From positions 1 to 64,000 of the forward strand of contig CAOKAC010000001.1 in assembly GCA_948466345.1 (NCBI GenBank): a stretch of 64,000 nucleotides of DNA, given 5' to 3'. A program made the position numbers and the translations under genes. The notes beneath the pieces were generated by a model, which saw only the letters and a list, made by a program, of their open reading frames with translations, ran no database searches and was not told the origin of the DNA. The stretch comes from an uncultured Clostridia bacterium (GTDB taxonomy: Bacteria > Bacillota > Clostridia > Oscillospirales > CAG-272). Positions within the stretch are counted from its first letter, which is position 1, and each line of letters begins with the position of its first letter. Below are positions 19,701 to 22,063 of the stretch, piece after piece.

Positions 19701-21480
19701 TATTGCCGTAAGCTCTGCCGATGCAAACCTCTCCGGTCGCAAAATTGATTGTGCCATAAATCTCACTGTGTATACCGCCCAAGTCCAGCACCAGCACATC
19801 GTCAATGTAAACCCATATGTCGTCGTCCCCGGAAAACTCAAATACCATATCATCTGTGGTATGATTTCCGCCGGCATTAATTTTTCCGCCGACAGGCTGA
19901 CGGAAATCTACCTCCATCGTCATGCCGAAATGGTGGTTGATGTACTGACCGCCGTTTGTATTGCCGGAACACGGAACATCACTGGTTAGATTCCCTGCTG
20001 CATCCGTATTGGAAAATACCTGTGATCCTGTATTAAAAGGAAAAAAATTACCAACTGTTCCTTTGCCGTCCGGCCCTTTTCCATCTGAACGTCTTGTTGC
20101 CGGCGCATCATACAAAATAAATTTGCTCTCGTCTTCATCAAACTCGGCAAAGTTATTTCGCATGTTGTAATAGTAATAGCCTTTGTCATCCAACTGGAAT
20201 AAGCCTTTGACATCTTTATAGCTGCGCTTGGAGGAGTGTACTTTATCTGGATTAAACAGATAATCTAAGGATTCTGTTCCCGTCTCAATAGTCTGTCCTG
20301 TCGCCGTCTCCCAACTATTTATCAGCGTGTCGCTCAAATTTTGCGGGTTCAGGCCATCGTATGTCCAGACACCGCCTGTTGTCTGATCAATATGATCTCC
20401 CGCCAGCTTCCAATCCATGATTCTCGTCCAGTCGCGGACGCTCTGATCGCTCACCAGCATATTTCTTGCGGCAGCAGTATTAATGGAAGGATAGCCATTT
20501 TCCAAAACATTTTTTACAATGCCTTCCATTCCAGCATATACTTTTCCGTAGTCATTGCTCTCACCTGCGCCTTTGTTCCAAAACCCTCCGTGGACTAGGC
20601 CATCGCCAAAAATCAAAAGATGATCTTTATTGATACCGCGGTTCCATTCGTTTATTCCGGAAAAGCTAGCGGTTCTTCCGCTGGCACGCATATGCGCGGT
20701 GCCTTCCTTAGTCAGCAGGTCTCCTGTTGTTGGAACAATTACATTTACACCGTAGTCAAACAGATTGAGCTTTACGTTGGCAGGCTGCACAACGCTGTCC
20801 GTTACAATATGCTGTTTCAGTATCGCATCCGATACCGCTATTGTCTCACCGTCTCCAAGGACTAACAAAACGGATAGCTCAGCCGCTTTGGAATCTAAAA
20901 CATAGTCCTTTCCAAGGGATGCGGTAAGCGTACAGCTTCCCTCGTATGCTCCCTCTTTTGGAAGCGGCGTGTAATCCCATTCCAGCGGCAGCGCCACGGT
21001 GCTTTTATCGGATAGTACCGCATCGACTTGTGCTGGCAGCAATTCCACCAACACCTGCTCTGTTACCGGATTTTCCTTGCTGGTACCAGGAAGGCCCAGC
21101 CCCCACACGCCTGTTTCCTCGTCCTGTACGAGATATCCCTCTTCATCTATCCATTTCCACGAAAGAACGGATTGAGGTTTTGGCGCTTCAAAATACCCGC
21201 ACTGTGCGTCATGCACATGAGAACAAAGCAAAACCCGGGTTACGCAGCCGCTTTCTTCACTGCAAACATGCTCTTCCTGTTGTGCGCTCGCTTCATCCTC
21301 TGTATCAGTAGTACTGTCAGCCGCATACAGACACGCCGTCACCTTAGTATAGCATTCTTCTGTATGCGCATGCGTGCATGTGCCCGTCTGCACATCTCCT
21401 GCAAGAACAAGTCCTGAAAAAGAGACAAATAAAAGGAGACCGCAAAGAAGCAAGCTCACAATTCTGTATTTCATTTTCAT
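16705..21480 (-). CDS. Giant tip adhesin of the pilus operon
   Basis: 1591 residues. A signal peptide (about 1-27) precedes a Cys/His-rich zone (about 34-95: CTHAHTEECY, CSHVHDAQCGYF) that could bind metal or form disulfides. Near residues 500-610 lies a fibro-slime-type domain with the marker FSGDDDIWVYIDD and VLDLGGIHSE. Several SpaA-like domains follow (KVNQDGDPLANVEFELYD, KVDQNGNRRNGAEFALYKD, KVDAENIDKPLSGARFTLYW), and the anchor LPFTG lies at about 1550 before a helix and basic tail. Size and first position in the operon fit a tip adhesin. The ATG overlaps the stop of a repeat-bearing leader ORF (ATGA), with AAAGGAGAAG inside that ORF. Confidence 0.9.
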   Translation of the reverse strand: MKMKYRIVSLLLCGLLLFVSFSGLVLAGDVQTGTCTHAHTEECYTKVTACLYAADSTTDTEDEASAQQEEHVCSEESGCVTRVLLCSHVHDAQCGYFEAPKPQSVLSWKWIDEEGYLVQDEETGVWGLGLPGTSKENPVTEQVLVELLPAQVDAVLSDKSTVALPLEWDYTPLPKEGAYEGSCTLTASLGKDYVLDSKAAELSVLLVLGDGETIAVSDAILKQHIVTDSVVQPANVKLNLFDYGVNVIVPTTGDLLTKEGTAHMRASGRTASFSGINEWNRGINKDHLLIFGDGLVHGGFWNKGAGESNDYGKVYAGMEGIVKNVLENGYPSINTAAARNMLVSDQSVRDWTRIMDWKLAGDHIDQTTGGVWTYDGLNPQNLSDTLINSWETATGQTIETGTESLDYLFNPDKVHSSKRSYKDVKGLFQLDDKGYYYYNMRNNFAEFDEDESKFILYDAPATRRSDGKGPDGKGTVGNFFPFNTGSQVFSNTDAAGNLTSDVPCSGNTNGGQYINHHFGMTMEVDFRQPVGGKINAGGNHTTDDMVFEFSGDDDIWVYIDDVLVLDLGGIHSEIYGTINFATGEVCIGRAYGNIVGLPEDPADPQQVVTKTTLKALFEAAGGNVASSVEWVGNTFASNTDHELKLFYLERGNYDSSLSMRFNLVPRLFQQIKKVNQDGDPLANVEFELYDAVENGDGGYTQTGSALTTLKTDEQGLAQFVEPNSVTKDNTEGDPFNFADRYISGHQYYILKETVTPFGYRSLPVDIVLKYEPETAMIIVANPWITGAYASFTSTVTGSRGITYGVFDEVTGDIKPSEEVLNSSVQSSGLIVAIPMLLEESTGKWKALYGSNVRGFSAIKPETRTEEAWREAILTAVLHQCSDTRGNVPGWYLEWNNDTKQLEGTLSDLPGRADRYVLNNAGGDMKMVYAIIDYSALNKLGVTSQNQSSAEKYQAMGAYVNNLIAGGMTRDEAVKTVRDLILNGNGDDRGLHTLNTDQFNRNFRALVYIPNEQRELRVWKVDQNGNRRNGAEFALYKDAALTDEVVRGVTGRVGDQDGVLIFTPSPEETETGETAAGYAKVLWARSQHDTYYLKETKAPEGCELNDTVIPVHVGIYSIYADAGTPDDGVSVMAGVGKLAQTMKKYAADEEVNITLRDITANAQIQPSGNFQTDGWQPMLLDGTTVPRSMNLHYGKNAIVDYGLHDEDGGAIYYPYFVTDTGFITARVRQNWSGLDSDNNKYGDESTNYQANKENLGDADITSLFSLLNIVVVTDQTTEDTKTGELTVSKTITGDIESNDEYTRNFTFNLKLTDADGNEIDPSKEFYFYGTDKSGYISSGGTILLHHDESITILGLPEGTHYTVTEILNAEDGYTSIGGVIREGTIVLTEEGQVLAVAKYINVRGNIIPFTFTKVDAENIDKPLSGARFTLYWWNGTGNPDTTLLPTTGASVNSGWSLVSTATSDADGLVDFGSLAAGTYRLIETVAPGGYILPKAQWQISVVVENGALKLDRVSTVGVPEDKPPAFAVEEIETDEGTIYTYKLPNMPEMRLPFTGGRKIYPFMAMGASLLSTAAVVAVWYSARGGRNTKKKT

Positions 21481-21719
21481 ATTCTAACTTCTCCTTTCGC
21501 ATGAAAATCGGTATGTCGATTTTGGATGAAATGCAAAAAAAGCGTGCCTACGCTGCAGATAAAATATCTGCAGCGATAGACATGCTTTAATATGTATATA
21601 ATGGCAGTGGAAAAGAACAGCCCAAATGCCGACACGGCAAAAAGAACAGAACTATTTCCTGTCTGTCTGTCTGTCTGTCTGTCTGTCTGTCTGTCTGTCT
21701 GTCTGTCTGTCTGTCTCAC
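21477..21719 (-). CDS. Leader ORF carrying the tetranucleotide repeat (phase-variable)
   Basis: 80 residues when started at the GTG at 21719, which follows GAGGGG six bases upstream of the start codon. The first 20 residues are the repeat RQTD encoded by the ACAG tract. The rest includes a hydrophobic segment (SSVLFAVSAFGLFFSTAIIY). In the present repeat number the frame runs through the intrinsic terminator at 21541-21586 and ends at TGA 21477-21479, overlapping the adhesin ATG. An upstream ATG at 21830 is in the same frame but has no ribosome site. The peptide is probably regulatory, acting by the position of its translating ribosome rather than by its sequence. Confidence 0.7.
   Translation of the reverse strand: MRQTDRQTDRQTDRQTDRQTGNSSVLFAVSAFGLFFSTAIIYILKHVYRCRYFICSVGTLFLHFIQNRHTDFHAKGEVRI
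21541..21586 (-). terminator. Intrinsic terminator inside the pilus leader
   Basis: On the minus strand an 11-bp perfect stem (CGCTGCAGATA with TATCTGCAGCG) is extended by a further 10 positions (one A-C mismatch, one wobble, one bulged base), then a run of seven T at the 3' side (21535-21541 read in reverse). It lies 55 bp before the adhesin start. If not disrupted it should stop most transcripts. Confidence 0.85.
21659..21716. repeat. CTGT/ACAG tetranucleotide tract, 14.5 copies
   Basis: 58 bp of uninterrupted CTGT on the plus strand, ACAG in the transcribed sense. Four is not a multiple of three, so each gain or loss of a unit by slipped-strand mispairing changes the leader reading frame. 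The tract begins two bases after the GTG leader start codon. Confidence 0.98.
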
Positions 21720-21954
21720 GATACCCCTCGTTTTATTTTTTTGCAACCTATATTTTGTAAATTTTTTAACATATTTATTAATAATTATACTACATTTTAA
21801 TAAATAGTATTCACACACTCTCTCCGCCATGTCAGTAGGATAGGCGTTCGAAATAGGTAGGTTGCTACGTCATTTTCCTTTGTTGGTAAAGCTTTGTAGT
21901 ATTTCCCCTTCTGTTTTTGACCAATTGAGGAAATATTAGACTGTTACGGTACCA

Positions 21955-21983
21955 ATTATACTAGCCCTTTTTTTGCTTGTCAA
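21955..21983 (-). promoter_or_regulatory. Consensus promoter of the pilus operon
   Basis: On the minus strand TTGACA (21983-21978), a 17-bp spacer and TATAAT (21960-21955): a perfect sigma-A promoter. Expected start is near 21948, giving a leader of about 470 nt. A second, weaker TATAAT lies further in the leader near 21790. I see no recognised riboswitch between the promoter and the leader ORF. Confidence 0.9.
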
Positions 21984-22063
21984 GAGAAAAGTCAACAAAT
22001 TTTTCCAAATTTTGGGTTAAGTATTTGATAGTCATTCGAATCTTGGTGTAATATGAATAATAA

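Follow-up and report, generated by a model that had tools for sequence, protein, structure and literature searches.

The closest described systems are the pil1 and pil3 pilus operons of Streptococcus gallolyticus, for which slipped-strand, translation-coupled leader attenuators have been shown experimentally (PMC3894217). In pil1, a leader with 22 repeats, whose stop codon lies 39-49 bp before the terminator hairpin, gives low expression, and high expression is seen with 21 repeats, which put the stop 4 bp upstream of the hairpin, or 23, which put it inside (PMC3894217). At the Escherichia coli terminator tR2, shifting the stop from 28 to 5 bp upstream reduced termination from ~90% to <10%, and stop-to-terminator distances of >27 nt were associated with full termination in this organism (PMC4824070). 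In the literature searched, repeat-in-leader attenuation was described only for S. gallolyticus pili, in that work and in articles that cite it.

The stretch of DNA analyzed here (64,000 nucleotides from an uncultured Clostridia bacterium; hereafter, the window) carries on its minus strand a sortase-dependent pilus operon, comprising an adhesin, a pilin, and two class C sortases, preceded by a leader that resembles those of pil1 and pil3: a promoter, a Shine-Dalgarno (SD) sequence, a short leader ORF with a pure non-triplet repeat, and an intrinsic terminator. As in S. gallolyticus, how far the leader stop lies from the hairpin depends on the reading frame (PMC3894217). Taking the sequence, the relatives, and the published precedents together, we consider this leader likely to be a phase-variable, translation-coupled transcription attenuator. 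Its elements, all on the minus strand, are as follows.

22062-22099 (-): intrinsic terminator of the upstream gene, separating the pilus leader from that gene
21955-21983 (-): promoter P1, TTGACA-N17-TATAAT, 12/12 match; also in relatives
21718-21746 (-): remnant of P2, a degenerate promoter-like pair, TTGCAA-N17-TATCGT; 8/12, p 0.38
21724-21729 (-): leader SD, GAGGGG (sequence reading)
21717-21719 (-): leader start codon, GTG (sequence reading)
21477-21719 (-): leader ORF as read with 14.5 units, 80 codons from GTG to TGA (frame translation)
21659-21716 (-): (AGAC)14.5 tract, 58 nt, 100% matches (TRF score 116); no other run of at least five ACAG units in the genome of 1,997,065 bases
21637-21663 (-): weak hairpin, 5' arm formed by the last repeat, with a T-rich run (TTCTTT) behind it; may act as a pause site
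21652-21654 (-): TAG, ends the leader when one unit is gained; predicted OFF (frame translation)
21587-21589 (-): TAA, stop of the frame after loss of one unit (or gain of two), at the hairpin base, predicted ON but uncoupled
21535-21587 (-): intrinsic terminator, T7, 21 pairs, -29.1 kcal/mol (folding, covariation)
21491-21497 (-): adhesin SD, AAAGGAG (sequence reading)
21477-21480 (-): ATGA, overlapping adhesin start and leader stop
21477-21479 (-): TGA, where the leader stops with 14.5 units; overlaps the adhesin ATG (21478-21480)
16705-21480 (-): adhesin, 1591 aa, SpaA and fibro-slime domains, LPFTG
14913-16652 (-): major pilin, SpaH/EbpB-like, isopeptide domain, LPXTG
13978-14832 (-): class C sortase
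13199-13933 (-): class C sortase

An initial annotation of the window had listed the promoter, GAGGGG, GTG, tract, and terminator, and each was recovered at the same position when 21300-22200 was read on the minus strand. Frame translation confirmed the two alternative stops that it had given (TAG after gain and TAA after loss of one unit), as well as passage of the present frame through the terminator to meet the adhesin as ATGA, and the terminator of about 21 bp with a T7 tail that it had described is borne out by folding and by the covariation reported below. Absent from that annotation were the terminator at 22062-22099, the weak hairpin behind the tract, the promoter-like pair that abuts the tract in relatives, and the reuse of the design before unrelated surface genes. 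An in-frame ATG at 21830 was rejected as the leader start for lack of an SD; the frame logic is unchanged either way. No Rfam match to a riboswitch or known leader RNA was obtained at or near the gathering score within 21300-22300. Elsewhere in the window are a pemK RNA motif (RF02913; 10439-10540, plus strand) above its gathering score and a large serine recombinase (11288-13117, plus strand) next to where the pilus operon ends. The interval that separates tex from the pilus leader (22155-27655, minus strand) codes for a subtilase of 1481 aa, which has a dockerin and ricin-type lectin repeats, and contains an ORF of 361 aa that belongs to no family; unlike in the window, tex directly precedes the leader in two relatives (G002 and G009).

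From this layout we infer that the tract slips in the living population, that P1 and the GTG are used, and that antitermination and coupling take place. P1 would transcribe the leader, and ribosomes would initiate at the GTG and translate the AGAC tract. As the repeat unit is not a multiple of three, gain or loss of a unit alters the length of the leader, and slipped-strand changes of 4 nt would shift the ribosome between three frames, whose stops in the window lie 67 nt before the hairpin, 2 nt before it, and past it. In the first frame, the stop right behind the tract would leave the ribosome far from the hairpin, allowing the terminator to fold, and the operon is predicted to be OFF. In the second, a ribosome stopped against the hairpin base should block folding, so that the operon is ON but uncoupled. 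In the third, the ribosome would cross the hairpin and end on the adhesin start codon, a state predicted to be ON with translation coupled to that of the adhesin; the present count of 14.5 units corresponds to this through state. Because of the pil1 results and the terminator-distance data, two of the three frames are expected to transcribe the operon and one to couple. The proposal in the initial annotation that one frame in three both melts the terminator and couples to the adhesin therefore stands for coupling and has to be revised for melting, for which two of three frames are predicted to be ON (PMC3894217, PMC4824070).

Close relatives of the adhesin were found in five genomes of the same genus, and further ones in two metagenome-assembled genomes named Clostridiales bacterium, which belong to another genus of the same family (JAAWDG010000008, here G071, and JAAVYP010000017, here G174). 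G001, G002, and G013 have contigs that end within the tract; in G003 and G009 the break is at the hairpin. Breaks of this sort are to be expected when short reads are assembled across a repeat like this one. In G009 (contig C92, locus L088), the last 70 bases consist of the leader start, 1.5 AGAC units, and then unrelated sequence, which may be a genuine deletion or a chimera at the contig end. We compared the three frames at the six pilus loci, from two genera, that have both the tract end and the gene start; the layout of stops is independent of repeat count, and so can be read in G001, G002, and G013 although their contigs end in the tract. Distances are in nt behind the tract.

Window: stops at 4, 69, and 179; gene start at 178
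G001: stops at 4, 69, and 179; gene start at 178
G002: stops at 3, 68, and 178; gene start at 177
G013: stops at 3, 68, and 175; gene start at 177
G071: stops at 1, 65, and 150; gene start at 149
G174: stops at 71, 97, and 159; gene start at 158

The hairpin starts 67-76 nt behind the tract at these loci. The conservation of the layout is observed directly: the through frame ends -2 to +1 nt from the adhesin start at all six loci, each of which also has a frame that stops 2-5 nt short of the hairpin; the remaining frame stops right behind the tract at five, its stop lying within the hairpin in G174. Since the tract-to-gene stretches share 58-85% identity and their lengths vary by as much as 29 nt, the through frame has been kept despite insertions and deletions. 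Shuffling this stretch with dinucleotide composition preserved left an open frame as far as the gene start in 3.1-9.2% of shuffles per locus, compared with six of six real loci; these probabilities were not multiplied, as the loci are related. Substitutions fall over all codon positions (13/14/12 between the window and G001; 13/9/6 between G002 and G013), so neither comparison gave a codon-position signal for a functional leader peptide, and it is the openness of the frame that is kept, not the peptide sequence. The terminator likewise shows covariation: among seven sequences, eight pairs are changed on both sides, a number reached by none of 500 shuffles, and structures slid along the alignment gave 1-2. 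The comparison with relatives thus supports the earlier proposal of a leader ORF with frame-dependent passage through a real terminator, and ATGA coupling is a layout that the relatives keep.

These data also bear on whether the arrangement is a chance one: the repeat would then be a neutral microsatellite, the hairpin would serve as the usual terminator for some short transcript from upstream, and the adhesin would have a promoter of its own behind that hairpin. The adhesin does have its own SD, as this explanation would have it. We regard it as highly improbable, because the layout recurs with the adhesin in two genera and before other secreted proteins in other genera, and because a scan of the interval between terminator and adhesin found no promoter-like site on the minus strand.

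Whether the tract varies is a separate matter, since a real attenuator with a tract that is stable in practice would make the leader a fixed constitutive or condition-dependent device. Ribosome-dependent attenuators with fixed leaders are common, and the window sits in the through state, both of which agree with such a reading. Long perfect tetranucleotide tracts are, however, typical slippage sites. Counts and states also differ between loci: the window and the G071 pilus locus are in the through state, G174 stops at the hairpin, and most other loci are predicted to be OFF. One genome per species was available, so that these tract-length differences are between species. In G071, the same tract has at least 32 units in one contig (C13, end of L090) and 28.25 in the other (start of L032), a disagreement that may reflect a mixed population or an assembly artefact. 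As pil1 tracts of similar make-up switch (PMC3894217), we judge a stable tract quite improbable and retain the phase-variable attenuator.

Upstream of the tract, an SD-like site and a start codon are found at all ten AGAC loci with upstream DNA, weakly in G002 (combined p for SD plus start, 2e-7), and P1 lies farther upstream (combined p about 1e-9). A second promoter-like pair, P2 (TTGMMA-16/18-TAxAAT, 9-12 matches), places its -10 element 1-8 nt before the tract at nine of the ten (combined p about 1e-16, with loci counted as independent), overlapping the SD and leader start codon in relatives. That a second pair adjoins the tract so regularly is a point against the attenuator model, as is the weakness of GTG as a start. 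Furthermore, transcription in Bacillus-type Firmicutes can run ahead of ribosomes, which would weaken antitermination. The regularity of P2 favors an explanation in which transcripts initiated there begin at the tract, and the tract affects initiation, mRNA 5' structure, or stability, with the leader ORF incidental; a P2 transcript would be without the leader start. We hold this to be unlikely. No good promoter was found directly before the tract in the window, where the P2 pair is 8/12 (p 0.38) and its overlapping -10 is broken while GTG and SD persist intact, and P2 is absent from the CTGT leaders of G088 described below, so the window is better explained by P1 transcripts whose leader is translated. 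Initiation at P2 would also leave unexplained the kept three-frame stop layout and the occurrence of a tract within an acyltransferase ORF. On these grounds, we conclude that P2 in the relatives is real and a feature in its own right, which might give rise to untranslated transcripts, pause polymerase for ribosome loading, or drive slippage. In G002 (contig C226, L074; last 500 bases), palindromic, MITE-like repeats lie between P1 and the leader start and P2; a fixed P1-P2 distance is thus not needed.

The initial annotation had suggested searching related genomes for tetranucleotide tracts. A strict tract-plus-CTG-plus-T pattern, which misses contigs broken in the tract, recovered only the window's own locus among 394 genomes of the order. 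Searches for AGAC tracts in up to 395 genomes of the family yielded further loci in other genera, several of them before non-pilus surface genes; within the family, AGAC tracts occur in six genera and CTGT tracts in a seventh. The further AGAC tracts are the following.

G071, contig C8: before a secreted repeat protein gene
G181, contig C8: before a BspA-type LRR protein gene, >2500 aa
G642, contig C10: before a 1262-aa lipoprotein gene
G693, contig C30: before a 520-aa lipoprotein gene
G213, contig C65: contig ends in the tract
G675, contig C10 (L092), 1792-1861, reverse: inside the start of an acyltransferase (Acyl_transf_3) ORF

The lipoprotein calls for G642 and G693 are based on signal sequences read by eye, and Pfam gave no domain in either protein. 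In G181, G642, and G693, a single frame runs past the terminator, the other two ending 31-65 nt before it; therefore, one of three frames would be ON at these loci. The G675 acyltransferase ORF is out of frame at present and open at one more unit, which indicates that such tracts are translated, and the locus has the appearance of classical phase variation of an enzyme gene. G088 carries three paralogous CTGT-tract leaders (contigs C22, C43, and C48; L095, L071, and L096) before different secreted-protein genes, and the two with upstream DNA read TTGACA-N17-TATAAT, AGGAGG, ATG, and then the tract. Two CTGT leaders of G088 share a nearly identical start peptide, MKTLFIQAN. As this observed reuse shows, the design is not confined to pili: other genera place AGAC or CTGT tracts in the leaders of BspA-like, lipoprotein, and other secreted-protein genes.

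Behind the tract, a hairpin whose 5' arm is the last repeat and which is followed by a T-rich run was found with folding energies of -4.7 (window), -7.5 (G181), -10.4 (G071, contig C8), and -13.7 kcal/mol (G693), for a modest combined p of 7e-4 with related loci counted apart. The motif TTNTTT, a NusG pause motif in Bacillus (PMC12288461), is present at all but one of the six pilus loci and at one of the other four. As a conserved pause, the hairpin is suggestive only. It would form part of a more speculative reading, doubtful although conceivable, in which the leaders are copies of a portable contingency cassette of one Clostridia family, consisting of P1, an SD and start overlapped by the second promoter-like element, the tract, a pause hairpin built from the last repeat, and the terminator, and inserted ahead of surface genes that have nothing else in common. 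On this reading, the role of the second element would be to keep ribosome and polymerase in step or to promote slippage, and the switch before the pilus genes would have three states (off, on, and on with coupled translation).

Placed among known regulators, the putative pilus attenuator resembles those of the trp and pyrBI type in that the position of a ribosome on the leader decides whether the terminator folds; it differs in that the input is a mutable repeat count and not the supply of an amino acid or nucleotide. Tetranucleotide slippage inside ORFs shifts the reading frame, for example, at the contingency loci of Haemophilus, and the G675 acyltransferase is of the same type, whereas the pilus tract acts in a regulatory leader and not in a gene product. 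In Neisseria nadA and Moraxella uspA2, tetranucleotide tracts reside in promoters or 5' untranslated regions; they too lie upstream of adhesin genes, with neither the translated leader nor the terminator present here. The parallel to pil1 drawn in the initial annotation is upheld, together with the differences it noted in repeat unit, organism group, and ATGA coupling. The unit is AGAC and not GCAGA, which we take as a species feature and not a defining one, and the hosts are Clostridia and not Streptococcus. In the through frame, the leader stop meets the start codon of the adhesin, unlike in pil1, where the stem-loop lies ~130 bp before pilA (PMC3894217), and in Clostridia the design also precedes non-pilus genes. 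That distant, uncultured Clostridia carry such a leader with a different repeat unit, ahead of pilus operons and several further surface genes, points to more than one origin of this control and to repeat-in-leader attenuation as a general route to cell-to-cell variety in surface proteins; as the repeat count modulo three predicts the state, it should be readable directly from metagenome reads. Compared with S. gallolyticus, what appears to be new is the other unit, the other bacterial class, the coupling to the gene start, and the use of one design across unrelated surface genes of a single family.
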